Position numbers and translations under genes: made by a program | From: a bacterium | Lineage (GTDB): Bacteria; Bacillota; Clostridia; Lachnospirales; Lachnospiraceae | NCBI GenBank assembly: GCA_028724545.1 | Contig: JAQYCU010000039.1 | Coordinates: 1 to 64,000 of the forward strand | DNA length: 64,000 nucleotides | Direction: 5' to 3' | Part shown: positions 1,208 to 63,027 of the stretch, piece after piece | Layout of the letters: the number at the start of each line of letters is the position of its first letter | Position numbering within the stretch: position 1 is the first letter of the stretch | Notes under the pieces: model-generated | Database searches by the model: none | Seen by the model: the letters and a program-made list of their open reading frames with translations, nothing else | What the model was told of the DNA's origin: nothing

Positions 1208-1428
1208 CAGGCGAAAAAGAATAACAGACAAGGTGAGGGCAAAAAGAATTACAGAAGAGATAGGAAAAAAATCCTAGATGAAATGAGAGAAAAATAATAA
1301 ACAAGGCGAGCAAAAAAATCATAGACGAACTGAGAGAAAAATCACAGATGGGCTTAAAAAATAGCAGACAAGATAGGAGAAAACGAATGGATGAAAAAAT
1401 AGAAAATCAAATTATTGAAGGAGAAAAA

Positions 1429-1878
1429 ATGGAAAATAATATGGATTTTTTTGGACAGATTGAAGAACATTTCGGAAAATCAAGAAGGAGTCCTGAACAA
1501 TATTCAGCATTGGGCTTAGCCTATATTGGTGATGCCGTGTATGATATTATCATACGGACAATTATAGTTGATTTGGGAAATAAAAAAGTCAGTCAGTTTC
1601 ATCGTATGACCAGCAGTATTGTTAAGGCAGAGTCACAGGCCAAATTAATGAAAACCATTATGGAAGATTTGACAGAGGAAGAAGAAACGATTTTTCGTCA
1701 CGGACGGAATGCAAAATCTCCAACGTCTGCAAAGAATGCGTCTATTGTAGATTACCGGGTTGCTACAGGATTTGAAGCACTGGTTGGTTACTTATATTTG
1801 CAGCATAAAACAGAGCGTGCTTTGGAATTAATTGAAAAAGGTTTAAAAAAAACAAAGCAATTACCGGAATCAGATTAG
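1429..1878 (+). CDS. mrnC: Mini-ribonuclease III
   Basis: A dimeric RNase III catalytic domain without a dsRNA-binding domain; in Bacillus MrnC matures 23S rRNA. The signature LAYIGDAVYDIIIR contains the catalytic acidic residue, and the C-terminal part has VDYRVATGFEALVGYLYL with the second conserved acidic residue. I start it at the ATG preceded by GAAGGAG at 6-nt spacing, giving 149 residues, close to family length. The track's start 27 codons earlier adds a polar tail, and the ATG at 1387 with TAGGAG is a possible alternative. It is next to rlmB, as in other Firmicutes. Confidence 0.9.
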   Translation: MENNMDFFGQIEEHFGKSRRSPEQYSALGLAYIGDAVYDIIIRTIIVDLGNKKVSQFHRMTSSIVKAESQAKLMKTIMEDLTEEEETIFRHGRNAKSPTSAKNASIVDYRVATGFEALVGYLYLQHKTERALELIEKGLKKTKQLPESD

Positions 1879-2055
1879 CAGCGAAAATGCCGGTGGAAAT
1901 CAATTTGTGCATTTTAGAAAATCGTGTTATTATCGATGATAGAGTATAGAATGGCAGATTGCCAGATAGTTTGAAATTGAATTACAGGGTAGCAGATGGG
2001 AAAGTGTTGCTGGTAGATTCATAGCAGTGTAGTGAGGATAGAGAGGATAGAAAAA

Positions 2056-2805
2056 ATGAGATACGAAGAGTTAACAATAGAAGGAAGAAATGCCGTAATA
2101 GAGGCATTTCGGGCAGGAAAAACAATTGACAAACTTTTTTTACTGGATGGATGTCAGGACGGACCAATCCGAACCATTCTGCGTGAGGCAAAAAAAACGG
2201 ATACCATTATTAATTTTGTGCAGAAAGAGCGTTTGGACCAGATGTCAGAAACGGGAAAACATCAGGGTGTGATTGCTTTTTCGGCAGCATATCATTATGG
2301 TACGGTAGAAGAAATGTTGCAGAAGGCAGAAGAAAAAGGGGAACCACCTTTTTTGATTCTTTTAGATAATATTGAGGACCCACATAATTTAGGCTCAATT
2401 TTGCGTACGGCAAATCAGGTTGGTGCACATGGTGTCATTATACCAAAGAGAAGAGCTGTCGGTCTGACGGCTACGGTTGCTAAGGCTTCAGCGGGCGCAA
2501 TTAATTATACACCTGTTGCAAAGGTTACTAATCTTGTAAAAACGATTGAGGAACTGAAAAAGCAGGGAATGTGGTTCGTTTGTGGTGATATGGATGGAGA
2601 ATCTATGTACCAGTTAGACCTTACCGGACCAATGGGGGTTGTGATTGGCAATGAGGGGGATGGCGTCAGCCGTCTGGTCAAAGAAAAATGCGATTTTGTT
2701 GCCAGCATACCAATGTTTGGCGATATTGATTCCTTAAATGCTTCAGTGGCAATGGGAGTATTGTCATATGAAATTGTACGACAGAGGATACAAAAAAATA
2801 AGTAA
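2056..2805 (+). CDS. rlmB: 23S rRNA (guanosine-2'-O)-methyltransferase RlmB (TrmH family)
   Basis: A SpoU/TrmH methyltransferase of about 249 residues. The N-terminal substrate-binding domain starts YEELTIEGRNAVIEAF, and the C-terminal trefoil-knot SAM domain shows motif 1 LLDNIEDPHNLGSILRTA, motif 2 VVIGNEGDGVSRLV and motif 3 IPMFGDIDSLNASVAMGVL. It methylates G2251-type sites in the peptidyl transferase region of 23S rRNA in family members. The ATG follows GAGAGG; the track's GTG at 2032 has no ribosome binding site. It sits between mrnC and the sigma factor gene, the conserved Firmicutes order. Confidence 0.93.
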   Translation: MRYEELTIEGRNAVIEAFRAGKTIDKLFLLDGCQDGPIRTILREAKKTDTIINFVQKERLDQMSETGKHQGVIAFSAAYHYGTVEEMLQKAEEKGEPPFLILLDNIEDPHNLGSILRTANQVGAHGVIIPKRRAVGLTATVAKASAGAINYTPVAKVTNLVKTIEELKKQGMWFVCGDMDGESMYQLDLTGPMGVVIGNEGDGVSRLVKEKCDFVASIPMFGDIDSLNASVAMGVLSYEIVRQRIQKNK

Positions 2806-2954
2806 AGAGTAAAAGAAAGCAAAAGGAAGTAAAACAAAACCAAAGTAAGACAACATCAAAACAGAAGAACATCAAAACAGCAGAACAGAAGAACAGCAGA
2901 AAAAAAGACACAGGATGGCAAAAGAAATAAGAGAAGAAAATGCGAGGAATTAAG
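2806..2954 (+). repeat. Purine-rich spacer with nested tandem repeats
   Basis: Almost free of T on the + strand. It contains AACATCAAAACAGAAG followed directly by AACATCAAAACAGCAG (2852-2883), then AACAGAAG and AACAGCAG (2884-2899). It separates rlmB from the sigma factor gene and encodes nothing recognisable. Confidence 0.75.
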
Positions 2955-3578
2955 ATGGGGATGGATTTCCAAACGATGGATGTGCTACAAATTATTGAAT
3001 TGGCACAGAGTGGAAATGGTGATGCAATTGCATATTTAATGGAAGAATATAAAAGTATGGTAAGAGCTCTGTCACGTCCGTTGTTTCTGATTGACGGGGA
3101 CCAGGATGATTTAATACAGGAAGGTATGATAGGTCTGTTTAAAGCTATTCAGACATATGATGCAAAAAAAGGTACGTCGTTTGACACATTTGCTAATTTA
3201 TGTATTTCCGGTCAGTTATATTCAGCTATTAAGATTTCTAATCGTAAGAAAAATATGCCACTAAATTCCTATATTTCGATATATTCTGATGGAGAAGATG
3301 AGGAAACAGGAGTACCGGAAAATTTATATGAATTTGATTCTGCTTTTGCAACAAGGCAGCAAAATCCGGAAGAAATTGTAATTAGTCAGGAAAATGCAAA
3401 AAATATAAAGAAGAAACTGATTAGCCGTCTGAGCAAGATGGAAATACAGGTGCTGGATTTGTTTTTGAAAGGACTTACCTATCAGGAAATAGCGCAGCAG
3501 TTAGGAAAATCGCCAAAGACGATAGATAATGCCTTGCAGCGAATCAAGAGCAAATTAAAGAAAATCAGAAAATGCTGA
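2955..3578 (+). CDS. RNA polymerase sigma-70 family factor, SigH-like
   Basis: A sigma factor of about 207 residues. Region 2 is clear (DDLIQEGMIGLFKAIQTYDAKKGTSFDTFA, where the core-binding and -10 recognition helices lie), and region 4 is near the C-terminus (LTYQEIAQQLGKSPKTIDNALQRIKSKLK). Size, lack of region 1.1 and position after rlmB match the SigH/stationary-phase sigma gene of Firmicutes. GAGGA lies 6 nt before the chosen ATG; the track's start at 2940 has no such site. The encoded regulon cannot be inferred here. The upstream spacer is a purine-rich tandem repeat. Confidence 0.85.
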   Translation: MGMDFQTMDVLQIIELAQSGNGDAIAYLMEEYKSMVRALSRPLFLIDGDQDDLIQEGMIGLFKAIQTYDAKKGTSFDTFANLCISGQLYSAIKISNRKKNMPLNSYISIYSDGEDEETGVPENLYEFDSAFATRQQNPEEIVISQENAKNIKKKLISRLSKMEIQVLDLFLKGLTYQEIAQQLGKSPKTIDNALQRIKSKLKKIRKC

Positions 3579-3656
3579 GGGAATAAGCCGGATGAGCAAA
3601 AACAAGCCAGAATAAGAGGGGGAAGGAAAAATAAACAGGACGAGGCGAAAAAGCAC

Positions 3657-3685
3657 TTGAAATATTTTGCATACTGAGGTATAAT
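3657..3685 (+). promoter_or_regulatory. Sigma-A promoter of tRNA-Thr
   Basis: TTGAAA, a 17-bp spacer and a perfect TATAAT, placed 13 bp upstream of the tRNA-Thr 5' end. This is a near-consensus housekeeping promoter. Confidence 0.85.
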
Positions 3686-3698
3686 ATCGTTTGTGATT

Positions 3699-3771
3699 GC
3701 TGCTATGGCTCAGGAGGTAGAGCGTCGCCTTGGTAAGGCGGAGGCCACGGGTTCAAATCCCGTTAGCAGCT
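3699..3771 (+). tRNA. tRNA-Thr (GGT)
   Basis: The acceptor GCTGCTA pairs with TAGCAGC, with discriminator T. The anticodon loop TTGGTAA gives anticodon GGT. D-arm GGCTCAGGAGGTAGAGC and T-arm CGGGTTCAAATCCCG are standard. No CCA is encoded. Confidence 0.93.
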
Positions 3772-3773
3772 TA

Positions 3774-3812
3774 AAAAGCGAGGAGTCATTTTAACAGGCT
3801 CTTCGCTTTTCC
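3774..3812 (+). terminator. Rho-independent terminator after tRNA-Thr
   Basis: Stem AAAGCGAGGAG / CTCTTCGCTTT with one G-T pair and a 13-nt loop, followed by TTTTCCTT. It directly follows the tRNA. Confidence 0.8.
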
Positions 3813-3820
3813 TTATTTAT

Positions 3821-3965
3821 AGAAAATTATTTGCATTTTGCGAGTAAAGATACTTATTTGTATTTTTGTAAGTAATGATATTTATTTACATTTATTTGCA
3901 GCTAACAGAAAATTATTTGCATTTTAGCAGGTAAATGAGGAAATTGTGAAACGGGGAAACGTTTC
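3821..3965 (+). promoter_or_regulatory. Iterated TTATTTRYA motifs upstream of amino acid importer
   Basis: Five copies of TTATTTGCA or close variants start at 3827, 3854, 3882, 3892 and 3913, all in the same orientation. The first and last lie in a 19-bp perfect repeat AGAAAATTATTTGCATTTT (3821-3839 and 3907-3925). TTTATAGAAAATT also resembles half or more of a CodY box (AATTTTCWGAAAATT). A 10-bp palindrome GAAACGTTTC (3956-3965) lies just before the start codon. The bound regulator is unknown; control by amino acid status is an inference. Confidence 0.5.
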
Positions 3966-3980
3966 GGATTGGAGATGTAT

Positions 3981-5579
3981 ATGAAAATAAGAAAAAGTAG
4001 TATTTGTTTTACTTTATTGTTGGGAGTGTTCCTTCTGGCAGGAAGTCTGTTTTACCATCTGGAAGCATCGGCAGCCAATCAGGAAGACGGTACTGTATTT
4101 ACTGTAGGGTTTGATGCCAGTTTTCCACCATATGGATACAAAGATGGAGAAGGGGAATACGCCGGCTTCGATTTGGATTTGGCGCAGGAAGTTTGCAACA
4201 GAAGAGGTTGGACTCTGAAAAAGCAGCCGATTGACTGGGATTCTAAAGATATGGAATTAAATTCCGATATGATAGACTGCATCTGGAATGGTTTTACCAT
4301 AAACGGCAGGGAAGACAAATATACATGGATTGGACCATATGTAGATAATTCCCAGGTCGTTCTGGTCAGTCAGAATAGTGGTATAGAGAAACTGAACGAT
4401 TTAGAGGGGAAAATTGTTGTAGTGCAGGCCGATTCCTCAGCACAGGCAGCATTGACAGGGGAAGATGCAACACAGGAGAATCAGGCATTAGCCGGTTCTT
4501 TTGGAGAACTGCAGATTGTTGGTGATTATAACAGTGCGATTATGAATCTGGAGGCAGGAGCCGTAGATGCCATTTGTCTGGATGTTGGCGTGGCAAAATA
4601 CCAGCAGAAAAATCATGACAAACTTGTGATTCTGGAGGAAACTCTTTCGACGGAAGGATACGGAATCGGTTTCAAAAAAGGAAATACAAAACTCCGGGAC
4701 CAGGTACAGGAAACTTTGTTTGAAATGCTTGATGATGGAACATTTCAGAAGATAGCAGAAAAATATGAAGATTACAATTTGCCGGAATGTATTTGTCTGT
4801 CAAAGGATACACCGGGCGTTGAGGAAACCTTAGCAGCAAGTGACGGCGAGAAGAAAGAAGCCGCACAGGAAAAAACTTCTTCCGGTATGGTCTTTTTGGA
4901 AAAAGTAAAAACAGGTTTTGCAAATTTTGGAGATATTATCAAACAACTGCTTTTTGGTTTTGGGGCAACATTATCCATTTTTGTTCTGACATTACTGTTC
5001 TCCTTACCTCTTGGACTGTTGATTACATTTGGAAGAATGTCTAAAAATATTATTTTAAGAGGCATTACTAAATTCTACATATCTGTTATGCGTGGAACTC
5101 CGTTAATGCTGCAGCTTCTGGTAGTATTCTTTGGACCATATTATCTGTTTGGCGTAAAATTGTCATCATTTGGACCATATTACCGGTATATTGCTGTTAT
5201 TATAGGATTTTCACTTAATTATGCTTCGTATTTTGCAGAAATTTACCGTGGTGGAATTGAAAGTATTCCGGATGGACAGAGAGAGGCAGCAGCCCTTTTG
5301 GGATACAACAGAGTGCAGACGTTTTGCAAGATTATTTTCCCACAGATGATTAAAAAAGTTATGCCGTCTGTTACAAATGAAATTATCACATTAGTAAAAG
5401 ATACTTCATTGGCATTTGTGCTGGCATATACAGAGATGTTTACACTTGCAAAACAGATTGCAGCGTCTATGACAAATATTATGCCGTTATTTGTGGCAGG
5501 CATCTTTTACTACATATTTAATTATCTGGTTGCTTATATTATGGAAAAAATTGAGCAGAAACTGGGTTATTATAAGTAG
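3981..5579 (+). CDS. Polar amino acid ABC importer, fused substrate-binding protein and permease
   Basis: One polypeptide with three parts. A signal peptide covers about residues 1-31 (ICFTLLLGVFLLAGSLFY). A type 3 periplasmic-binding domain (about 40-270) has FDASFPPYGYKDGEGEYAGFDLDLA and ends KIAEKYEDYNL. A C-terminal HisM/GlnP-type permease has about five helices and the EAA loop YRGGIESIPDGQREAAALLG, which contacts the ATPase. It imports a polar amino acid or related compound; the ligand is not evident. I chose the third in-frame start (ATG at 3981) because TTGGAG lies 6 nt upstream; the track began at a TTG. The ATPase gene follows after 88 bp. Confidence 0.92.
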   Translation: MKIRKSSICFTLLLGVFLLAGSLFYHLEASAANQEDGTVFTVGFDASFPPYGYKDGEGEYAGFDLDLAQEVCNRRGWTLKKQPIDWDSKDMELNSDMIDCIWNGFTINGREDKYTWIGPYVDNSQVVLVSQNSGIEKLNDLEGKIVVVQADSSAQAALTGEDATQENQALAGSFGELQIVGDYNSAIMNLEAGAVDAICLDVGVAKYQQKNHDKLVILEETLSTEGYGIGFKKGNTKLRDQVQETLFEMLDDGTFQKIAEKYEDYNLPECICLSKDTPGVEETLAASDGEKKEAAQEKTSSGMVFLEKVKTGFANFGDIIKQLLFGFGATLSIFVLTLLFSLPLGLLITFGRMSKNIILRGITKFYISVMRGTPLMLQLLVVFFGPYYLFGVKLSSFGPYYRYIAVIIGFSLNYASYFAEIYRGGIESIPDGQREAAALLGYNRVQTFCKIIFPQMIKKVMPSVTNEIITLVKDTSLAFVLAYTEMFTLAKQIAASMTNIMPLFVAGIFYYIFNYLVAYIMEKIEQKLGYYK

Positions 5580-5667
5580 TGAAAAATATGTCGAATGCAA
5601 AGCAGAAATTGTGCAATGACAACCTATAGAAATATGTCCCAAAAACGGGACAGCAGGAGGTGGCAAA

Positions 5668-6393
5668 ATGAAAAATGTACCAGTATTGGAAATGGAACAT
5701 GTGAGTAAGAACTTTGGTGAATTAGAGGTATTAAAAGATATATCTGTTAAGGTGGAGGAAGGAGAAGTTGTATCGATTCTCGGACCTTCCGGCTCAGGCA
5801 AGTCAACGTTGCTTCGCTGTGCAACGAATCTGGAAAAGATGACTTCTGGCAAACTTTCCTATATGGGAGAAACCGATGAGAAAGAAATGAAAAAGTATTA
5901 TGGCCTGGTATTTCAGAATTTTAATTTATTTCCACATTTTTCTGTCTGGAAAAATATTGTAGATGCACCAATTTCCGTACAGAAGAGAGAGAAAGAAGAA
6001 GTTTACAGTCAGGCAAAATCATTGATAAAAAAACTTGGACTGGAAGGAAAAGAAGACAGCTATCCATGCCAGTTATCGGGAGGACAGCAGCAACGAGTTG
6101 CAATAGCAAGAGCATTGGCGATGCAGCCTAAGATTCTCTTTTTTGATGAGCCGACATCTGCACTGGACCCGGAACTTACGGCAGAGATTTTGAAAGTTTT
6201 GCGTGAACTGGCAAAAGAGAAGATGACAATGGTAATCGTAACGCACGAAATTGATTTTGCACGTCAGGTTTCGGACAGGGTTATTTTTATGGACGGCGGT
6301 GTTATTGTAGAGGAAGGTGTTCCGGAAGATGTTATCGACCATCCTTCCAATGACAGAACACAGAACTTCTTAAAGAAACTTCAGCGTGAGTAG
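5668..6393 (+). CDS. Amino acid ABC transporter ATP-binding protein (GlnQ/HisP type)
   Basis: A 241-residue ABC ATPase. It shows Walker [13 protein letters not shown]-loop [11 protein letters not shown], signature [16 protein letters not shown], Walker [15 protein letters not shown] and switch histidine VTHE. The FNLFPH stretch is typical of polar amino acid importers. It pairs with the fused receptor-permease upstream; two copies of each half would form the complete importer. AGGAGG sits 7 nt before the ATG. Confidence 0.94.
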
Positions 6394-6416
6394 ATTGGGA
6401 CAGAGGACACAGAAAT

Positions 6417-6686
6417 ATGATAGCGATATATTTTATGGCAGTCAATCTGCTTGGCTTTCTGATAATGGGAATCGATAAGGTGAAGGCAAAAAAGCATGCC
6501 TGGCGAATACCCGAAAAAACGTTATTTTTTGTGGCTTTCCTTGGAGGCAGTCTTGGAAGCTGGGCCGGAATGTATTTTTTTCGGCACAAGACCAGACACT
6601 GGTACTTCGTAGTGGGAATGCCGGCTATTCTGTTTGCGCAGATTATCATTTTATATCTGCTGGGTGACAGAATACCGGGATTATGA
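6417..6686 (+). CDS. DUF1294 family small membrane protein
   Basis: An 89-residue protein with three or four hydrophobic helices and the DUF1294 pattern: MGIDKVKAKKHAWRIPEKTLF, GGSLGSWAGMYFFRHKTRHWYF. Function is unknown in the family. It begins 23 bp after the ABC ATPase and may be carried on the same transcript, but such proteins are also found with unrelated neighbours. Confidence 0.82.
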   Translation: MIAIYFMAVNLLGFLIMGIDKVKAKKHAWRIPEKTLFFVAFLGGSLGSWAGMYFFRHKTRHWYFVVGMPAILFAQIIILYLLGDRIPGL

Positions 6687-6715
6687 TAAGCAGAAAATGT
6701 GCGTAAACAAAGCCT

Positions 6716-6785
6716 GATATCAGGAAAACCAGAAACACTGGAAATAAATAACGACATCAGAAAAACCAGAAACGTTGAAAATAAA
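6716..6785 (+). repeat. Imperfect 33-bp direct repeat, period 37 bp
   Basis: Copy one begins GATATCAGGAAAACCAGAAA (6716) and copy two GACATCAGAAAAACCAGAAA (6753); both end GGAAATAAA or GAAAATAAA. This is a purine-rich tandem duplication between the DUF1294 and DUF1858 genes. Confidence 0.75.
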
Positions 6786-6828
6786 AGCAGACAGTAGGAA
6801 ACAGGGAATACAAAAAAGGAGAATTGTC

Positions 6829-7029
6829 ATGGTCATTACAAAATATTCATTGATAGGTGCAATTTTACAATATTATCCCAGTGCAAAAGAATGTTTCGAG
6901 GAGATGGGGATGCATTGTGTATCCTGTCACTTATCGCCACGCGAAACACTGGAGCAGGCATGCACTACACATCAGTGCGATTTGGACGAACTGATACAAA
7001 AACTGGACAGGCATATTAATGGTGAATAG
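6829..7029 (+). CDS. DUF1858 domain protein (hybrid-cluster-associated redox disulfide)
   Basis: A 66-residue protein with the CVSCHLSPRETLEQAC motif of the DUF1858 family, including the CxxC pair (MHCVSCHLS) and the later Cys. The family is named after its association with hybrid cluster proteins, but no hcp gene is present here. AAAAGGAG precedes the ATG by 7 nt; the track's ORF start 18 codons upstream is in the repeat spacer and has no ribosome binding site. A redox role is an inference from the cysteines. Confidence 0.82.
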   Translation: MVITKYSLIGAILQYYPSAKECFEEMGMHCVSCHLSPRETLEQACTTHQCDLDELIQKLDRHINGE

Positions 7030-7043
7030 TTCCAATTGCAAGT

Positions 7044-7077
7044 AGTACTTTATTCCTGTACTTTTTTTTGGTATAAT
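7044..7077 (+). promoter_or_regulatory. Terminator-like stem followed by extended -10 promoter
   Basis: A short stem AGTAC / GTACT runs into TTTTTTTT, then TTGGTATAAT (extended -10, TATAAT at 7072-7077). Transcription would begin near 7084, right at the track's ATG (7085), which supports the later ATG at 7112 as the real start of the next gene. Confidence 0.55.
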
Positions 7078-7111
7078 TCTTGATATGATTAATTACATTT
7101 GGAGGGAAGTT

Positions 7112-8824
7112 ATGAAACGAAGAATAACAGCAATGCTGATTGCGATGTTAAGTATTACGTCTGTTCTATGTTCCACTGTTGTGTCACAGGCAGAAGTGAT
7201 ACATGAAACAGATTTAGAAGATTATCTGCTGGAAGAACTTTCTTCGGCACATGCTCTGGGAATGGGGATTTCGATTGTCAGTGCTGATAAGGAGTTGTAT
7301 TGTGCTGCATACGGAATGGCGCAGAAAACAGAGGCAGATTATGTACTGGGAGATTTGACAAAATCTTTTACGGCTGCCGGAATTATGCGTCTGGAAGAGG
7401 ATGGCGAACTTTCCCTGGAGGATACGATAGGCGACTTTTTATCGGAATATAAAGGATTTAAAGATATTACTATCCGTGAACTTCTGACACAGACAAGTGG
7501 TATTGCGTCAGGACAGACAATGGATGATGCAAATCCTGAGGGAACAAAGGGAACATTTGAGGATGCAAACTTAAACTATACAATTCTTGGTGACATTATT
7601 GCAACCGTGTCCGGAATGGAATATGAAGAATATATTTCAGACAATATTCTGGACCCGTTGGAAATGACATCAACATATTCTATGCGTCATGATGCAGACA
7701 TGGGCGAAGGAATGATAAATGGTTACAAAAACTATTTTGGATTTCCTTTTTCATACAAATATCAGTATTCAGCAGATGAAAAGTGGATGACAGTTCCGTC
7801 TTCTTATATGATTTCTGATGTGAAGGATATGGGAAGATATCTGCAGATGTATTTGCAGGACGGAGGCGATGTTTTATCAGAAGAAAGTATTGAGAGTATG
7901 CTTTCCGGTGATACAGTGGTTCCAAAGAGCGAAAAGATTTCCAAAGAAATTTTTGGCAAAACTGCAAAATATGGAATGGGCTGGATTGAGAAGGAAACAG
8001 ATGGACAGAAAGTACTGTATGCTTCCGGAAAAACAGAAGGACATACTACTATGATGATGCTGCTTCCAGAACAGAATGTTGGTATCGTGATGATGTTTAA
8101 TTCAGCAGATGCGCTGGTTGGACAGAAACTGATTCAGCAGCTTGCAGAGGGTGTGATTGCGATTGAATTAGGAAACACACCGGAAACGATTGGGGACAAT
8201 ACTTACTTTTTGCAGCATATTGCTTATGATGTGCTTATGCTGTTAGTTCTCATTGCAGCATGTCTGCCTATTTTCCTGATGAGTGTATGGTGCAGAAAAC
8301 GCCGCCAGAAACTGGCTGATGTACCGGGAATTATTGCAGATGTGGTGATTCATATTATTCTTCCGACAGTGGCATTGGTAGTGTTTAGCAGATTGATGCC
8401 GGCGTATTATGCCGTGAAATTTATGCCGGATGTATTTTATGTTAGTTGTCTGACGATTGGTGTTCTTTATCTGGGAGCACTGGTTAAGCTGGTTGCCGGC
8501 ATTGTGATTGCAGTGAAGGGACCGGAAAAGAACGACGGCAAAGATGAGGAAGAAAAGGCAGAGCCGGAGCAATCTGAAGAAAAGTCTGATGATGGCAGTG
8601 AAAGCGACGAAACGGAAAAGGCAGAGCCGGAGAACGATAGCAAAGTTGATGAGAAAGTCGACAAGACGGAGGCTGAGTCAAAAGAGCCGGAAGAAGATAA
8701 AAAAGATGAAAACGATAAGACCGGTGATGAAACGGTAGAAACAGAAAAAACGGAAGATGACAAGAAAGAAGAAAATAAAACAGAAGATGATAAAACAGAT
8801 GAGGAAGACAAAAAAGAAGTCTAA
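7112..8824 (+). CDS. Membrane-anchored beta-lactamase-fold protein, probable pseudoenzyme
   Basis: 570 residues. It has a signal peptide (about 1-30), a class C beta-lactamase/serine hydrolase-like domain (about 40-350), three or four membrane helices (about 365-470) and a very acidic, Lys-rich tail made of EKTEDDKKEE-like units. The SxxK motif normally seen as GSxTKxFTA reads GDLTKSFTA, so the nucleophilic Ser is Asp81; YxN reads DAN (151-153). The remaining fold markers, such as LTQTSGI and LGDIIATVSGMEYEEYI, are well kept. I infer a binding or sensory role at the cell surface rather than hydrolysis. GGAGGG precedes the chosen ATG. Confidence 0.8.
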   Translation: MKRRITAMLIAMLSITSVLCSTVVSQAEVIHETDLEDYLLEELSSAHALGMGISIVSADKELYCAAYGMAQKTEADYVLGDLTKSFTAAGIMRLEEDGELSLEDTIGDFLSEYKGFKDITIRELLTQTSGIASGQTMDDANPEGTKGTFEDANLNYTILGDIIATVSGMEYEEYISDNILDPLEMTSTYSMRHDADMGEGMINGYKNYFGFPFSYKYQYSADEKWMTVPSSYMISDVKDMGRYLQMYLQDGGDVLSEESIESMLSGDTVVPKSEKISKEIFGKTAKYGMGWIEKETDGQKVLYASGKTEGHTTMMMLLPEQNVGIVMMFNSADALVGQKLIQQLAEGVIAIELGNTPETIGDNTYFLQHIAYDVLMLLVLIAACLPIFLMSVWCRKRRQKLADVPGIIADVVIHIILPTVALVVFSRLMPAYYAVKFMPDVFYVSCLTIGVLYLGALVKLVAGIVIAVKGPEKNDGKDEEEKAEPEQSEEKSDDGSESDETEKAEPENDSKVDEKVDKTEAESKEPEEDKKDENDKTGDETVETEKTEDDKKEENKTEDDKTDEEDKKEV

Positions 8825-8882
8825 AAATGCGATAGAAAACGAGTAGAGATATAATAGAATCAATCACATACAATAGAAAAAG

Positions 8883-8911
8883 TTGACAGAGTAAATAAAA
8901 TTTGTTAATAT
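8883..8911 (+). promoter_or_regulatory. Promoter of the ilvBN T-box transcript
   Basis: Perfect TTGACA, 17-bp spacer, TAATAT. It lies about 25 bp before the T-box Stem I. Confidence 0.7.
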
Positions 8912-8935
8912 TATCAAAAATTGTAAATCGAAATG

Positions 8936-9210
8936 CTATGACGAGGAGGAGTACATATAGCGTGAGAGCGTAGAGAGAAGATGGCTGGTGAAAATCTTTG
9001 TTTCAGTTATATGGAAGTAGCCTCTGAGCAGTGGACCGAAAGGAATGATTTCCAAGTAGACTTCAACGGAGATTCCACCGTTATCAGGAAAACAATATTG
9101 ATGGCAGCAGCCGGCGTATTGTAGAGAGCAAAAAGAGATTTTTGAATTTAGGTGGTACCGCGGAACTTATTCGTCCTAAACTGGCAGGTTTGTTAGTTTA
9201 GGACTTTTTT
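8936..9210 (+). promoter_or_regulatory. T-box riboswitch, probable Val specifier
   Basis: Stem I starts near GACGAGGAGGAGTACATATA and is closed by TATATGGAAGTAGCCTC. The AGTA/GAA loop-E pair is followed by GTA (9017-9019) at the specifier position, reading Val. The conserved T-box AGGTGGTACCGCGG (9150-9163) would pair with the uncharged tRNA acceptor end. The terminator GTCCTAAACT / AGTTTAGGAC plus T6 (9173-9210) competes with the antiterminator. Binding of uncharged tRNA-Val would allow read-through into ilvB. The specifier assignment is by hand folding. Confidence 0.9.
9173..9210 (+). terminator. T-box-controlled terminator
   Basis: A 10-bp perfect stem GTCCTAAACT / AGTTTAGGAC with TTTTTT. 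Its 5' strand overlaps the region after the T-box motif, as expected for attenuation. Confidence 0.9.
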
Positions 9211-9348
9211 AACGTTAAACTTGCAATCAGATGCAAGTTTCCGGTCTGATTTTCGATTAACAAAAAGCAGCCTGAGGCAGTATTGCAGTAAAAACAGAAT
9301 GTGTCAGAAACAGTATCACATCATAGAAAAAAGAAAGGTGGTTCATTT

Positions 9349-11070
9349 ATGGTAAAGGGAACAGAGATTATAGTGAAAGCATTGAAGGAAGAAGGAGTGG
9401 ATACCTTATTTGCCTATCCGGGTGGTCAGGCAGTGGATATCTTTGATGCATTATATGACCAGAATGATATAGAAATCATACTGCCCAGACATGAGCAGGC
9501 TTTGATTCATGCAGCAGATGGTTACGCACGTTCCACCGGAAAAGTTGGTGTATGTCTGGTAACGAGTGGTCCGGGTGCAACAAATCTGGTAACGGGAATT
9601 GCAACTGCAAATTATGACAGCGTTCCTCTGGTATGTATTACGGGACAGGTTCCTTTAGGTCTGATGGGAAATGACGCTTTTCAGGAAGTTGACATTGTAG
9701 GCATTACAAACAGTATTTGCAAATATGCAGTAACGGTCCGTACAAGAGAAGAACTTCCAAAAATTCTAAAAGAAGCATTTTATATCGCACGCACAGGAAG
9801 ACCGGGGCCGGTTGTTGTTGATATTCCAAAGGATATTCAGCAGGCAATGGGCAGCAACGAATATCCGACAGAAGTGAATATTCGTGGTTACAAACCAAAT
9901 GACAGTGTTCACGTAGGACAGATTAAAAAGGCTGTCAGTATGCTGAAAAAAGCGAAGAAACCTCTCTTTTTGATAGGTGGGGGTGTCAATATCTCCGGTG
10001 CCAATGAAGAGATGAAAAAATTAGTGGATGTGACAGGAGTTCCCGTTATTACGACGATTATGGGAAAAGGTGCGATTCCGACCTCGCATGAACTTTATAT
10101 GGGAAATATCGGTATTCACGGCAGTTATGCAGCTAATCACGCCGTAGCAGAATGTGACTTGCTATTTTCCATTGGAACCCGTTTTAATGACCGTATCACA
10201 GGAAAAATCAGTGAATTTGCCAAAAATGCAAAAATCGTTCATATCGATATTGACTCTGCGTCCATTTCCAAAAATATTGTCGTTGACATTCCGATTGTGG
10301 CAGATGCAAAAATGGCCATTGAAAAACTTCTTGAGTATGTTACAGAATTAAAGATTGATAAATGGGTAGAACAGGTAAAAGGCTGGAAAAGAGATTATCC
10401 GATACATATGAATCAGTATGACGGTCTGACACCGGAAAAAGTCATTCAATATATTAATGAAAATTTCACGCATCCGATTATCACAACGGATGTAGGACAG
10501 AACCAGTTATGGGCAACACAGTATATGGAACTGGAGAGCAACCGACAGTTTTTGACCTCTGGCGGACTGGGAACAATGGGATATGGATTCCCGGCAGCAA
10601 TCGGTGCCCAGTTAGGCAATCCGGAACGTACTGTTATTGCAATTTCCGGTGATGGTGGTATGCAGATGAATATTCAGGAACTGGCGACAGCAGTTGTATT
10701 GGAACTGCCATTGATTCTTGTTGTATTTAACAATGGTTATCTGGGAAATGTGCGACAGTGGCAGGAATTGTTTTATAACAAGAGATATTCTTCCACTTGT
10801 CTGCGATATCGCAAGAGCTGTGAGAGAAACTGTAAAGACAGGGATAAATGTTGTCCAAAATATACACCGGATTTTGTGAAACTGGCAGAAAGTTATGATG
10901 CGTATGGCATCCGTATCACAAAAGAAGAAGAAATTGCAAAAGCATTTGCGTATGCGAAAGAGCATAAAAATGCACCGACAATCATTGAATGTGTCATTCC
11001 AAGAGAGGCTAATGTATTTCCAATGGTTCCAACCGGAAAACCGTTGAATGAAATGATAATGGACTGCTAA
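9349..11070 (+). CDS. ilvB: Acetolactate synthase, large catalytic subunit
   Basis: A ThDP-dependent enzyme of 573 residues that condenses pyruvate into acetolactate (Val/Leu) or with 2-ketobutyrate (Ile). Domains in order: N-terminal pyrimidine-binding domain (FAYPGGQAVDIFDALY, catalytic Glu in PRHEQALIHAADGYAR), central FAD/NADP-like domain, and C-terminal ThDP domain with GDGGMQMN...NNGYLG. The C-terminal domain carries a Cys-rich insert, TCLRYRKSCERNC and DKCCPKY. AAAGGTGG precedes the ATG; the track's GTG is 16 codons too early. ilvN follows, and a Val T-box controls the pair. Confidence 0.95.
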   Translation: MVKGTEIIVKALKEEGVDTLFAYPGGQAVDIFDALYDQNDIEIILPRHEQALIHAADGYARSTGKVGVCLVTSGPGATNLVTGIATANYDSVPLVCITGQVPLGLMGNDAFQEVDIVGITNSICKYAVTVRTREELPKILKEAFYIARTGRPGPVVVDIPKDIQQAMGSNEYPTEVNIRGYKPNDSVHVGQIKKAVSMLKKAKKPLFLIGGGVNISGANEEMKKLVDVTGVPVITTIMGKGAIPTSHELYMGNIGIHGSYAANHAVAECDLLFSIGTRFNDRITGKISEFAKNAKIVHIDIDSASISKNIVVDIPIVADAKMAIEKLLEYVTELKIDKWVEQVKGWKRDYPIHMNQYDGLTPEKVIQYINENFTHPIITTDVGQNQLWATQYMELESNRQFLTSGGLGTMGYGFPAAIGAQLGNPERTVIAISGDGGMQMNIQELATAVVLELPLILVVFNNGYLGNVRQWQELFYNKRYSSTCLRYRKSCERNCKDRDKCCPKYTPDFVKLAESYDAYGIRITKEEEIAKAFAYAKEHKNAPTIIECVIPREANVFPMVPTGKPLNEMIMDC

Positions 11071-56996: not shown

Positions 56997-58171
56997 GAGA
57001 TCCATTGTCCAAAAAGATAAAGAACATAGAGCCATCCGGTATTCGTAAATTTTTTGATATTGTAAGTGAAATGAAGGACGCCATATCGCTTGGTGTCGGA
57101 GAACCTGATTTTGATACGCCGTGGCATATCAGGGAAGAAGGCATTTATTCGCTGGAACGTGGACGGACTTTTTATACATCAAATGCCGGTTTAAAGGAAT
57201 TAAAGCAGGAAATTTCTTATTATCTGAAACGACGCTTTGATTTGGAATATGATGCAAATCATGAGATTATTATGACTGTCGGGGGAAGTGAAGCAATCGA
57301 CGCAGCATTTCGTGCTATGCTGGATGCAGGCGATGAAGTCTTGATTCCTCAGCCAAGTTATGTTTCGTATGAGCCGTGTGCCATTCTGGCAGATGGAGTG
57401 CCGGTTACTATCCGTTTACGGGAAGAGGACCAGTTTAAACTGACAAAAGACCAGCTGCTGGAAGCGATTACGGATAAGACGAAAATACTGGTTCTGCCAT
57501 TTCCGAACAATCCAACCGGTGCGATTATGACAAAAGAAGATTTGCAGGAAATAGCAGATGTTGTGATTGAAAAAGATTTATATGTGCTTTCGGATGAAAT
57601 TTATTCGGAACTTACATACTCCGGCAGGCATGTTTCAATTGCTTCCTTGCCGGGAATGAAGGAGAGAACAATTGTTATCAATGGTTTCTCCAAGTCTTAT
57701 GCAATGACGGGATGGCGTCTGGGATATGCCTGTGGACCACGGGTTATTTTGGACCAGATGCTCAAAATACATCAGTTTGCCATTATGTGTGCACCGACGA
57801 CCAGCCAGTATGCAGCCGTGGAAGCAATGCGCAATGGAGATGATGATGTAGAACAGATGCGTAATGCTTATAACCAGCGCAGAAACTTTTTGATGAAAGC
57901 TTTTCGGGAAATGGGACTGCAGTGTTTTGAACCGTTTGGCGCGTTTTATGTATTCCCATCCATCAAAGAATTTGGTATGACTTCGGAAGAATTTGCGAAC
58001 CGTCTGCTACGGGAAGAAAAAGTGGCAGTTGTTCCAGGAACAGCATTTGGTGAATGTGGCGAGGGATTTTTGCGTATCTCGTATGCCTATTCCATAGACA
58101 GTCTGAAAGAGGCGTTGGGACGTTTGCAGTCCTTTATTGAAAGACTTCGTAAGGAGAAAGAAACATGCTAA
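56993..58171 (+). CDS. Class I/II pyridoxal-phosphate aminotransferase
   Basis: 392 residues. Fold type I features: GVGEPDFDTPWHI, PLP-contacting VGGSEAIDAAFRA, FPNNPTGAIM, SDEIYSELTY, Schiff-base Lys in INGFSKSYAMTGWRLGY and Arg of FLRISYAYS. Likely acts on aromatic or other amino acids; the specificity is not clear. It overlaps the Lrp-type gene by 4 bp and trmL by 7 bp, so all three form a tight operon. Confidence 0.94.
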   Translation: MRDPLSKKIKNIEPSGIRKFFDIVSEMKDAISLGVGEPDFDTPWHIREEGIYSLERGRTFYTSNAGLKELKQEISYYLKRRFDLEYDANHEIIMTVGGSEAIDAAFRAMLDAGDEVLIPQPSYVSYEPCAILADGVPVTIRLREEDQFKLTKDQLLEAITDKTKILVLPFPNNPTGAIMTKEDLQEIADVVIEKDLYVLSDEIYSELTYSGRHVSIASLPGMKERTIVINGFSKSYAMTGWRLGYACGPRVILDQMLKIHQFAIMCAPTTSQYAAVEAMRNGDDDVEQMRNAYNQRRNFLMKAFREMGLQCFEPFGAFYVFPSIKEFGMTSEEFANRLLREEKVAVVPGTAFGECGEGFLRISYAYSIDSLKEALGRLQSFIERLRKEKETC

Positions 58172-58668
58172 ATATTGTATTATTAGAGCCGGAAATGCCG
58201 GCAAATACAGGAAATATAGGAAGAACCTGCTGTGCGACGGGAACGCGTCTTCATTTGATTGAACCAATGGGATTTAAAATCAATGATAAAATGTTAAAAA
58301 GAGCAGGTCTGGATTATTGGGAGCATCTTGATGTGACAGTATATGATTGTCTGGAGGATTTCTTTGAACAAAATCCGGATGCCGTCGGCAAGATGTTCAT
58401 GGCAACAACAAAAGCCAAACAGAATTATTCTGAAGTATCTTATCCAGAAGATGCATACATAATGTTTGGAAAAGAAAGTGCCGGTATTCCGGAAGAAATA
58501 CTGGTCGATTACGAGGAAACAGCGATTCGCATCCCAATGAATGAAAAAATCCGTTCGCTGAATCTGTCCAACTCGGTAGCAATCGTGTTGTATGAGGCAT
58601 TGCGACAGAATCATTTTGGCTCGATGCAGATAGAGGGGGATTTGCACAGACTGCACTGGAAGGAATAG
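58165..58668 (+). CDS. trmL: tRNA (cytidine(34)-2'-O)-methyltransferase
   Basis: 167 residues, a minimal SPOUT domain: ML-NIVLLEPEMPANTGNIGRTCCATG, FGKESAGIPEEIL and IRSLNLSNSVAIVLYEALRQ, the last two forming the SAM knot. It methylates the wobble base of tRNA-Leu. Overlaps the aminotransferase stop by 7 bp, with AAGGAG upstream. Confidence 0.95.
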   Translation: MLNIVLLEPEMPANTGNIGRTCCATGTRLHLIEPMGFKINDKMLKRAGLDYWEHLDVTVYDCLEDFFEQNPDAVGKMFMATTKAKQNYSEVSYPEDAYIMFGKESAGIPEEILVDYEETAIRIPMNEKIRSLNLSNSVAIVLYEALRQNHFGSMQIEGDLHRLHWKE

Positions 58669-59139: not shown

Positions 59140-62100
59140 TTAATAATTCAACTCAACGCGCACAATATTTTCCAGCATCTGTGCCGAATCAAAGTTATCA
59201 TTTGCAATAACGGTATATTCAATCGTATCTGGTGCAACGGCACGGTAATAGATGCCAGCATTCTCATAAGTCCTTGCCAGACGGCAGTTCTTTTTATATA
59301 CATCAAAAATACTAAGCGTACCACTGGCTGCCTCAGAGCGTGGCGAATAGTAAATAGCAAAATCTTCTGTTGAGGCATCACAAAGATAGGTCCATTTGTT
59401 ATATGGCAAAGATGGGTCTGAGATAACCTGGAAAAGATTTTTCTTTTTGTAGCCAATATAATAACGGAAACGGATATCAGAAGACTCATTTGTGATATTC
59501 TGGCTTTGTGGCATAATAATTTTAATACGTCCACCGGGACGGCCTTCCAAAAGACCGAAAGCAACGCCCGTTTTTCCGTTTGGTTTCGTAATCGCTGCCA
59601 GCGTATCTTCTTCTGACGGCTGTGAAATATTCTGTGCCAAATCCCCAATATCAGAAACGCTTTGTGCCAAATCACTGATACCACCCTGCTGCGTCAAAGC
59701 TTCGATAGCAGAAGGTGTATTTTTAGGTGCAGCGATATTCGTGATATTGCTGGTTGCAGCAGACTGCTGTGCAGCTTCAATGCCAGACAACACTTTGGAA
59801 GTTGGAGCAACTCCTTTCTTTGTGTCTGTCATACCAAGAGCAGGATGCAGACGGAAGAAATCATTGCCAATGCTTCCGTTAACGTGATGCTGTAAGTCAG
59901 ATGCATATGTAATCATATAGGTTTCAAAAAGGTCTGTTAATATCTGTGAACGGCTTCCGTTTCCGGCAAGGAAAATGTGAACACAGTTGATATCAGTTCC
60001 TAATTTGCCCTTAAAAGTTGCTTTCAGACATTCAAAGAAGTTTGCGATACCAAGTTCAATTCGTTTATGTAACAATTTGTCCAGTACCTGAATATTAACG
60101 TCCAGTTCGTAATTTAATTTCTGTTCGCCGGTGCGTGTAAACAGTGGAAGTTTAATTTTGCCGGACTGGTAAAGGCTTGCATAATTTTTATCGCGCTCCC
60201 AGAATGGACGGAGTTTTTCCATTAACTGCCGTGTATTGAGTTTTGCTTCCTGCGAATTTGTAATCAGCGATTCGCTTCCCGGGAAAGGCTGACACTCTGG
60301 AGGCAGTGAAAATGTAATATTGTCTTCACGCAGTTTGTCCTGATTTGCACGGAATACTTCATAAGACATCAGCTGCAGGAGGTTTTCACCACCAAGATAC
60401 TGGTCGCCACCACTTCCGTAGCATTCTAACACATAATCATATCTGCGACTGTCGGCAGCATCTGGTGTATGCCAGTGTCCGAAGTCAAAGTCGGTTGTAC
60501 CACCGCCGAAATCAAAGATACCGTAATAGACTTCTTTTTCGCCATTTTCAAGGTCAAAGCCATATTCCTCCAAAGCACAGATAGCATAAGCAGCTGGCTC
60601 AGAAGTACCTTTCATAACACGGAAGTTTTTCATAATTTCTTCGTCGTGCAAAATAGATTCTGGCAGAGATTTTTTGATACCACGGTAAAAACTGTCTACA
60701 ATCTTATCGCAGATAGCATGTTCAAATGTAACAGGAAAAGAAAGTAAATAGTTTAAGAAGATACCATTGTTCATATTGTTAATGGCAAGTCCTATGTAAT
60801 AAGCATAAATTTCAATTGGGTTGAAATCGTCCTCGCCGATTTCTGAAAATGGTGGAAGTGAAATGTCATTTCCAGATTTATCCTTTAAACGGATTTGTTT
60901 CTTCTGGCTGCCTGCCCACTGCTTTAGTTCATTAAAATAAGTATAATAGTCGTTGCTTGTGCTGTTCATCATACTGTTTACGGCAGTGTGGGAGATTGTC
61001 AAATCTTCCCATAAAGTATCAGGACGGCCTTCTTTCTGATGATATAATTCCATAAACCGTTCCAGATTAATTAATTCCATTACGGTAGGGTTTTCATACT
61101 GCATCAAATCAGCTTTTTTAGAAAAATGGCTGGTACCGATTCTCATAGGAATGATTCGTTCCGTATTATCCTGATATACGACAACGGTACTTTTCGTACC
61201 AAAATCAATACCAATAATGCCGTTTGGTTTGATATCGGCAGCAGGATTACGCGCAATCATTGGCGTGTTAACTTTTGCCGTGTATTTAAATGATGTGTGC
61301 TGGTCCTGCCAGAGATTCCAGTGTCCGCGGTTTGGGTCAATCAGAATATTTTCGTCATACCGGTCAAAATCTGCCCGTAACTGGTCGCAGGAAAGCAGAT
61401 GGTCTTTCAAAATCTGTATAGTAGAATCCGACAAATTGTCAAGGGAAATAGTTTTTTCATTGACATCATACAGGAAAGAAGAACGGTAGGCGTTGTCTGA
61501 AATAAATTTAGCTTCGCCGTTCATAATACTTTCCAGAATGACATCCTCACGTATTTTGATAATATCTCCATTCCATTCAAAACAGTCTTTGTTTGTCTGA
61601 TACAGAGAAAGTACATGCTCATAAGTGGAAATTAAATCAGCCGGCAGGTCATCTGGCACCAATTCGTTATCCAGCCAGAAAAAAAGCGTCTTTGCCGGAG
61701 AAATTTCTTCGCTGTCCATTCCATTTAGCCGGTAAAGTGGAATGTGATATGCCTCCAGTTTGGAAAAACCATTCCAACGCTTGGTGCGTATACCGTCTGC
61801 GTGAATTGCTTTACGGAAATCCATCACAGTAAAGAATCCGTCAAATAAATATTCCGGACAAAAATCATATAGTTTGTCAAACTTGCCACCAAAGGAACGT
61901 TTAAATTCGTTCATTGTCATCAGAGTGCCGTTGTAACCGTTAAATTCTTCGTGAAACGTAACCGGGTCATAGGTATGCTTTAAAGAGCAGTGGCCAAGTT
62001 CAAAATTATTCAGATTGGGGAATATGGCAACAACAGCGTTATTGTAGAGAACATCCTTGTTGCTGATATAAAACCAGTCCGAGTGCTTCGTGTGCTCGGT

Positions 62101-62244
62101 AATATAACTGCGCATATGCTCAAAAAACGCTGTTAATAACGCAGACTGTTTTTTGATTAATACGGGTATGTGTTCTTCAATCACCTCGTGAAAAAGGTCT
62201 TCTCCGATTGCAATTTTATCGACCTGTTTTGTTGTAATATTCAT
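59140..62244 (-). CDS. Divergent Hsp70-like ATPase with long N-terminal extension
   Basis: 1034 residues. Residues 1-340 are an unrecognised soluble region. The actin/Hsp70 ATPase domain follows: phosphate-1 loop GIDFGTKSTVVVY (about 345-357), GTSEPAAYAICALEEYG, phosphate-2 GIFDFGGGTTDFDFG (about 575-590) and adenosine motif FLAGNGSRSQILTDLF (near 770). The usual Hsp70 substrate-binding domain is absent; a low-complexity linker (about 800-880) and a beta-rich C-terminus (IRFRYYIGYKKKNLFQVI...) replace it. No signal peptide. AGGAGG precedes the ATG. The upstream coiled-coil gene is its likely operon partner. Function unknown; non-canonical chaperone-like ATPase. Confidence 0.8.
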   Translation of the reverse strand: MNITTKQVDKIAIGEDLFHEVIEEHIPVLIKKQSALLTAFFEHMRSYITEHTKHSDWFYISNKDVLYNNAVVAIFPNLNNFELGHCSLKHTYDPVTFHEEFNGYNGTLMTMNEFKRSFGGKFDKLYDFCPEYLFDGFFTVMDFRKAIHADGIRTKRWNGFSKLEAYHIPLYRLNGMDSEEISPAKTLFFWLDNELVPDDLPADLISTYEHVLSLYQTNKDCFEWNGDIIKIREDVILESIMNGEAKFISDNAYRSSFLYDVNEKTISLDNLSDSTIQILKDHLLSCDQLRADFDRYDENILIDPNRGHWNLWQDQHTSFKYTAKVNTPMIARNPAADIKPNGIIGIDFGTKSTVVVYQDNTERIIPMRIGTSHFSKKADLMQYENPTVMELINLERFMELYHQKEGRPDTLWEDLTISHTAVNSMMNSTSNDYYTYFNELKQWAGSQKKQIRLKDKSGNDISLPPFSEIGEDDFNPIEIYAYYIGLAINNMNNGIFLNYLLSFPVTFEHAICDKIVDSFYRGIKKSLPESILHDEEIMKNFRVMKGTSEPAAYAICALEEYGFDLENGEKEVYYGIFDFGGGTTDFDFGHWHTPDAADSRRYDYVLECYGSGGDQYLGGENLLQLMSYEVFRANQDKLREDNITFSLPPECQPFPGSESLITNSQEAKLNTRQLMEKLRPFWERDKNYASLYQSGKIKLPLFTRTGEQKLNYELDVNIQVLDKLLHKRIELGIANFFECLKATFKGKLGTDINCVHIFLAGNGSRSQILTDLFETYMITYASDLQHHVNGSIGNDFFRLHPALGMTDTKKGVAPTSKVLSGIEAAQQSAATSNITNIAAPKNTPSAIEALTQQGGISDLAQSVSDIGDLAQNISQPSEEDTLAAITKPNGKTGVAFGLLEGRPGGRIKIIMPQSQNITNESSDIRFRYYIGYKKKNLFQVISDPSLPYNKWTYLCDASTEDFAIYYSPRSEAASGTLSIFDVYKKNCRLARTYENAGIYYRAVAPDTIEYTVIANDNFDSAQMLENIVRVELNY

Positions 62245-62303
62245 ATGTGCCTCCTTTTCCCTATACGGACCTCAATATTATATTTGTTTTTGCTGCAGGA
62301 ATA

Positions 62304-62861
62304 CTAATTAATTTCTACAACTGATTTTTTAATTACTTCTCCGGTAAAAGCATTTGTCAGACCAGACAGCAGAACATTGGTAATTGCGCCTGCCGGCTTG
62401 CTTTTTTGCGTACGGATGTGTAAATCAACATCGAAAATATCGCCAATTGCTGTATTCTGTATCCCCAAAAGAGGAGATTCATTTGTCCCATTATACAGAT
62501 GGACAAAATAGGTAATGATTTCGGAAAGAATGGCGACATCAGCCATATTTCCATTCAAAGCCTCTGAACGTGCAAATTCCCAAAGTGCATCAATATTGCC
62601 GGGCTGAACGCCACAAGCTAAAAATTCTTCAAAAGAAGTCCCTTTGAAAATGCCACTCAATGCTTCCAGACTAGGCTCAGACAGGCTTTGATATTTATAA
62701 AAAGTCTGTGTCTGTCGTTGGAAAATTCCCTTGAACTGAAAATATTTTCCCTTATACTCGTCACGCATTTTTTCCGTTTGCAGCAGTTTTTCTTGCGTCG
62801 ATGCTAATTTTTGCTGCAATTCTTCCATTTGTAAATTTACATCATTTTGCTGCTCTGGCAT
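62304..62861 (-). CDS. Small coiled-coil protein paired with the Hsp70-like gene
   Basis: 185 residues. An N-terminal coiled coil of about 50 residues (VNLQMEELQQKLASTQEKLLQTEKMRDEYKGKY) and a compact domain (FQRQTQTFYKYQSLSEPSLEALSGIFKG; LCGVQPGNIDALWEFARSEA-like text). The layout of a coiled coil plus small domain recalls GrpE, the nucleotide exchange factor of Hsp70, but I see no GrpE motif. GGGGG lies before the ATG at 62861; the track start four codons earlier has no site. The 59-bp gap to the Hsp70-like gene suggests one operon. Confidence 0.65.
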   Translation of the reverse strand: MPEQQNDVNLQMEELQQKLASTQEKLLQTEKMRDEYKGKYFQFKGIFQRQTQTFYKYQSLSEPSLEALSGIFKGTSFEEFLACGVQPGNIDALWEFARSEALNGNMADVAILSEIITYFVHLYNGTNESPLLGIQNTAIGDIFDVDLHIRTQKSKPAGAITNVLLSGLTNAFTGEVIKKSVVEIN

Positions 62862-63027
62862 AAATACCCCCATAAATAATTTGAAATACCTGTATCTGAT
62901 ATTACTAAAATATAACTACAATTAAGTATACCATATGTCAGAAAAGGTGGAAAGAAAAAGTTAAGGGAAACGGCAAATCTGACGAAGTAAATAATAGAAA
63001 ATATCAGGAAATGAAATGGGGAATATC

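Follow-up and report, generated by a model that had tools for sequence, protein, structure and literature searches.

What is the task of an Hsp70-like ATPase that has no recognizable peptide-binding domain and is encoded next to a small coiled-coil protein? Hsp70 machines are normally generalists: they have a peptide-binding domain and rely on J-proteins and an exchange factor. The question is raised by two genes near the end of a 64,000-nucleotide stretch of a Lachnospiraceae genome (GenBank assembly GCA_028724545.1, contig JAQYCU010000039.1, positions 1 to 64,000), here called the window. Both lie on the minus strand in operon order, with gene A (62304..62861; 185 amino acids [aa]) upstream of gene B (59140..62244; 1034 aa) and 59 bp between them. 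As described below, A is a remote homologue of GrpE, as seen from its open reading frame, profile comparison, AlphaFold2, and Foldseek, and B is an Hsp70-like ATPase, as judged from its open reading frame, alignment, profile comparison, and Foldseek. On balance, we lean toward the view that the two form a private Hsp70 machine, in which B would be an ATP-driven switch and A its dedicated GrpE-type exchange factor.

The phosphate-1, phosphate-2, connect, and adenosine motifs of the Hsp70 family are all present in B, together with the catalytic K/E/D/T/D residues. The signatures read IDFGTKST (residues 346-353), ELKQW (containing K441), SEPAAYA (548-554), FDFGGGTTDFD (577-587), and LAGNGSRSQ (759-767), and are invariant or nearly so in relatives from Bacillota and one Pseudomonadota plasmid. 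In a 15-member family alignment, IDFGT, LKQW, SEPAA, FDFGGGTTDFD, and LAGN did not vary, nor did K441, E549, D578, T583, and D585, the equivalents of the catalytic residues of DnaK and Hsc70. When the B profile was compared with a profile of eight DnaKs, DnaK residues 2-337 aligned with B residues 341-781 (probability 96.5%, E 8e-10; reversed control, E 0.21). Alignment and profile-profile comparison placed the nucleotide-binding domain at residues 339-800 (59845..61230, minus strand), and the ATPase domain itself covers residues 341-781, approximately, plus 888-900. A Pfam search with gene B matched no family, and in NCBIfam there was only a low-scoring DnaK match at about residues 547-624 (17.7 bits versus a cutoff of 648). 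The AlphaFold2 model of B was poor (predicted local distance difference test score [pLDDT] of 41, from a shallow alignment), so that the end regions are not interpretable from it; all 50 PDB matches listed by Foldseek for this low-confidence model were nevertheless Hsp70 structures. Judged by sequence comparison, B is a strongly diverged Hsp70 relative with a complete ATPase domain.

No substrate-binding domain (SBD) or lid was recognizable in B. Its C-terminal ∼130 residues did not match the DnaK SBD in a profile-to-profile comparison (E 0.66), and too little sequence follows the ATPase domain to form the helical alpha lid of Hsp70. A D-x-I-x-V-like pattern near the C terminus was considered as a hidden SBD-beta and rejected, because the comparison with the eight DnaKs gave no support for it. 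By alignment, residues 885-1034 (59143..59592, minus strand) consist of KTGVAFGLL, the end of the ATPase domain, and a C-terminal domain that is kept in all 15 aligned relatives and for which several strands are predicted with low confidence. The last ATPase-domain segment is preceded by an S/A/Q-rich linker (residues 801-884; 59593..59844, minus strand) that is variable in length and shorter or absent in relatives. At the other end, residues 1-338 (61231..62244, minus strand) had no match in Pfam and proved to be family specific and fast diverging: among eight representatives, mean pairwise identity was 16% for residues 1-285, 32% for residues 286-338, and 43-44% for the ATPase domain. The conserved stretch at 286-338 (∼52 residues) has the pattern GHWxLW...ARNPxxD. 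Acinetobacter members of the B family carry an Lcl_C domain (PF07603) in their N-terminal region; equating the clostridial N terminus with it was rejected, since only the 52 residues preceding the ATPase domain align. A preliminary description of this DNA had reported intact ATPase signatures, a missing normal SBD, and a new N terminus of about 340 residues, and all three were borne out.

The same description had called the product of gene A GrpE-like in a formal sense, and the resemblance turned out to go deeper. Single-sequence searches recovered the coiled coil only, and the Pfam GrpE family (PF01025) matched 2 of 16 A members without reaching its cutoff (best E, 0.033). Aligned by hhalign with a profile of canonical GrpE proteins from Bacillota genomes, the A family matched across coil, bundle, and wing with a probability of 95% and a single-pair E value of 3.9e-8; the beta-wing alone, without the coil, reached 94.9% and 4.5e-8, and reversed controls gave E values of 0.12 to 0.3. 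In the AlphaFold2 model of A (pLDDT, 86.6), a single long helix is followed by a helix bundle and, at the end of the chain, by a strand domain. This layout, with a long N-terminal helix or coiled coil (residues 2-58), a helix bundle (62-124), and a GrpE-type beta-wing (132-184), is that of the GrpE family, whose wing motif G-x-x-FD...H...G-x-(V/I)...G(Y/L)...(R/K)-x-(S/A)-x-V is present: A has GDxFDxDxHIR...G-x-I-x-x-VLL-x-GL...G-x-x-I-K-K-x-V-V where canonical GrpE has GxxFDPNxHNA...G-T-V-x-x-x-x-QKGY...V-R-x-S-M-V. Each of the first eight Foldseek matches of A in the PDB was a GrpE or GrpEL1 structure, with a best E value of 3.5e-3 (probability, 0.94) and low template-modeling (TM) scores of 0.28 to 0.39; hinge and coil orientation may differ. 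By profile match, AlphaFold2 layout, and Foldseek matches, A is truly, if remotely, homologous to GrpE, which extends the GrpE family past the reach of the Pfam model.

Both genes have good ribosome-binding sites, with AGGAGG ahead of the ATG in gene B and GGGGG ahead of it in gene A. Compared with relatives of 72-86% B identity, the proportion of nonsynonymous differences (pN) was 0.08-0.17 for gene B and 0.13-0.22 for gene A, and synonymous differences (pS) were saturated in both (0.72-0.91). Because pN is low at saturated synonymous positions, A and B are selected as proteins; both genes are intact, maintained, and under strong purifying selection. Some copies elsewhere show decay or assembly errors: gene B is interrupted by a frame break in genome G148 (locus L050) and on a Helicobacter plasmid (L031), and it contains one in-frame TAG in G005 (L028).

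The order of the two genes is strict, and the pair recurs across phyla as a unit. B was found in 15 of the 28 genomes of the window's genus and A in 14 of these 15, the exception (G023) being a locus that ends at a contig end; the proposal of a two-gene module thus held. The arrangement with A immediately before B recurs in G015, G007, G346, G478, G394, and G148, as well as on an Acinetobacter piscicola plasmid and a plasmid of a Helicobacter sp. When 399 Bacillota genomes were sampled evenly, 6 had B, one of them the window's own. Distances between A proteins and between B proteins were correlated (66 pairs; Pearson, 0.97; Spearman, 0.69), in part through shared descent. No relatives were found in phage records, viral contigs gave only 23-36% matches restricted to the Hsp70 ATPase domain, and the Acinetobacter genes matched nothing at the DNA level in E. 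coli genomes. Canonical dnaK and grpE had been described as absent, which is true of the neighborhood and not of the genome, where both lie on contig C24, separate from A-B.

In other genomes the pair belongs to larger cassettes. In G015, G148, G394, and Acinetobacter, it adjoins or shares a cluster with a ∼1030-aa HerA/VirB4-like ATPase (the HerA label in G394 is given by sequence resemblance), and the last three clusters also encode a protein with a glycine/serine-rich N terminus. The Acinetobacter cluster has WYL, HEPN, and dynamin genes in addition. In G346 (L046, 8764-19901) and G478 (L047, 1-11275), the pair is directly followed by genes for DUF4280-AHH toxin-like, Imm11/Imm43, 730-aa, Hcp-like, and VgrG-like proteins, named by Pfam for G346 and by matching gene order and sequence for G478. 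Downstream of the pair on the Helicobacter plasmid are genes for a WXG100-like small protein (by sequence reading) and an FtsK/SpoIIIE protein. In a tree of the ATPase domain, G346 paired with G478 and G297 with G394, with several inner branches unresolved. Since families f62 and f92 are each divided between these two groups, the tree indicates that B follows the cassette and not the bacterial family.

Two of these loci hold further genes. On the A. piscicola plasmid (L030, 4112-18435), a WYL regulator, the HerA-like ATPase with a serine-rich insert, and the glycine/serine-rich protein are accompanied by gene A, two tandem B genes with Lcl_C N termini, HEPN, and a short dynamin-like protein, and the cluster adjoins integrase and HipA genes. 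In G015 (L032, 131-13882), A-B and the HerA-like ATPase are preceded by a metallo-beta-lactamase-fold protein, a 360-aa protein, and a second Hsp70 of 929 aa with a clear Pfam HSP70 match.

For the private Hsp70 machine that we favor, the following cycle can be proposed. B would act as a conformational switch on its Hsp70 ATPase domain, powered by ATP; A, predicted to dimerize via its long helix, would use the beta-wing to return ADP-bound B to its ATP state. Binding of one particular partner may fall to the N-terminal region of B, which would thereby replace the general peptide-binding domain, and the conserved C-terminal domain may couple to the ATPase cycle; with ATP turnover, the partner would be loaded, held, or released. 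This partner is probably specific, because the peptide-binding domain is missing and the N terminus is the changing part. Judging by the cassettes, the assemblies concerned would be secreted, injected, or conflict related; most plausibly, the partner would be either an effector of a conflict system or part of a protein assembly that is located at the surface, secreted, or injected. Other lineages would have recruited the pair into HerA-ATPase, VgrG/Hcp/toxin, and plasmid cassettes, and its recurrence in toxin-delivery and defense-like cassettes suggests a reusable ATP-driven switch. Most likely, A-B is a dedicated Hsp70/nucleotide exchange factor (NEF) switch or chaperone of conflict-related assemblies, whose target and link to defense we infer. 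A bolder version, which we put forward tentatively, is that the pair is a hitherto undescribed Hsp70/NEF module, mobile and self-contained, its recognition N terminus exchanged between lineages, that powers or gates HerA- or VgrG-type delivery or conflict assemblies rather than general folding, the copy in the window's genus being domesticated and standing alone.

Several observations weigh against such a machine. No HerA-type or VgrG-type cassette partner was found in the window's genome. Single-sequence Pfam searches stay below the Hsp70 and GrpE cutoffs, and the hhalign E values come from single-pair comparisons and are not database calibrated. G297 has B and no detectable A, and in G021 a distant B paralogue sits with dynamins, without A.

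Several known systems share features with the pair. In canonical DnaK/GrpE, the ATPase domain is homologous to that of B and shares its catalytic residues, the exchange factor is homologous to A in coil, helix bundle, and beta-wing, and the gene order is the same, grpE-like then hsp70-like. Unlike canonical DnaK, B has no recognizable SBD or lid, a 338-residue N-terminal region, and an unrelated C-terminal domain; no J-domain gene was found beside the A-B pair. Adaptors and chaperones that load effectors for type VI secretion, such as Tap/DUF4123 and Eag, are not ATPases and belong to protein families unrelated to A-B; the likeness lies in the position of the pair in G346 and G478, directly upstream of DUF4280 PAAR-like toxin, immunity, Hcp-like, and VgrG-like genes. 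Hsp70 and GrpE genes are also reused in GAP1-N2 GTPase-centric conflict loci, in some of which the HSP70 is devoid of its peptide-binding domain (Kaur et al. 2020, PMC7159879). Those loci also encode TRAFAC GTPases, GAP1, and FNIII-repeat proteins, the last often fused to DnaJ (PMC7159879); no GTPase, GAP1, or FNIII-repeat gene stands beside the window's pair. CnuD of CoCoNuT is likewise an Hsp70-like protein of a conflict system; it keeps the NBD/SBD (nucleotide-binding/substrate-binding domain) layout, its ATPase motifs are degenerate, and it acts together with homologues of McrB/McrC, and part of the CoCoNuTs have in addition an ATPase of the FtsK/HerA superfamily, EccE3-HerA (PMC11090510), a type of ATPase also seen near some relatives of the pair. 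In contrast to CnuD, B has intact ATPase motifs and no SBD match, and among the neighbors of the window's two-gene unit, which lies between trmL and the DUF6240 gene, there are no McrB/McrC homologues. The unit is not described in PMC7159879 or PMC11090510, and no other description was found in the open-access literature (subscription journals and preprints being outside the scope). An Hsp70-like ATPase paired with a GrpE-like factor in the absence of a peptide-binding domain, kept as a unit across phyla and located ahead of toxin-delivery and HerA cassettes, would mean that bacterial conflict has made a special-purpose switch out of the Hsp70 cycle.

An alternative that we consider unlikely, and yet the best of those left, is an anti-phage or anti-mobile-element module, in which a component of the invader would be sensed through the N terminus of B, and B and A together would set off an effector. 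It would account for the HerA-type ATPases, WYL regulator, HEPN, dynamin, HipA, and plasmids associated with relatives, is consistent with the patchy distribution in the genus and the phylum, and has precedents in the published Hsp70-bearing conflict systems. However, the locus in the window's genus is syntenic beside housekeeping and flagellar genes and lacks an effector, neither A nor B has an effector-like domain, and neither matched any catalogued defense protein in a search of PADLOC-DB 2.0. The window's copy stands alone, is vertically inherited in its genus, and is not in a defense island; the suggested link to conflict thus holds for the HerA cassettes, the WYL/HEPN/dynamin island, the VgrG/toxin/immunity cassettes, and the plasmids of other genomes and not for the window's own surroundings. 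A defense role is possible for this locus.

These surroundings raise the somewhat less probable idea that the stand-alone copy is a chaperone or regulator specific for the flagellum or a surface protein, which would explain its proximity to DUF6240, flagellin, and FliS-like genes. The order trmL, B-A, DUF6240, flagellin, FliS-like, malQ is syntenic in several pair-carrying genomes of the genus, the pair at L027 sits between flagellin-type genes, and genomes without A-B also lack the DUF6240-flagellin block at the trmL site. Yet homologues in G007, G015, G346, and G394 and on plasmids are not adjacent to flagellar genes, and motility does not need A-B, because flagellins are present in all 28 genomes of the genus; for the same reason, co-occurrence could not discriminate and was discarded as a test of flagellar dependence. 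Improbable, finally, is a mere coiled-coil scaffold (A) for an actin-like polymerizing ATPase (B) with convergent GrpE resemblance and no nucleotide exchange, since spurious profile matches of coiled coils, the common actin/Hsp70 fold, and the low TM scores of A are outweighed by the GrpE match of the beta-wing alone, not reproduced by the reversed control, and by best fold and profile matches of B to Hsp70, not to actin or MreB.

Domain searches identified the flanking genes as trmL (SpoU methylase; 58165-58668), convergent to A-B, and the DUF6240 gene, divergent from it and running from 63016 to the window's end at 64000. Beyond them, several by sequence reading, are aminotransferase, AsnC-type regulator, HypE-like, and VanW-like genes on the trmL side and flagellin and FliS-like genes on the other. 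A gene that reads as 6-phosphofructokinase-like adjoins trmL in three of four pair-less genomes examined gene by gene. Upstream of gene A, which has an alternative in-frame start 12 nt upstream (giving 189 aa), is a weak extended -10 promoter-like site (TTTCCA-17-TATACT; 62925..62953, minus strand), of a kind whose count in the region is not above chance. The diverged Hsp70-like protein of G021 (L034; contig C13, 22000-31817), about 32% identical to the ATPase domain of B, is encoded at 399-9818 in one row with two dynamin-like GTPases, a Sel1-repeat protein, and a 385-aa protein; this row, from which gene A is absent, looks like a second, dynamin-linked system.

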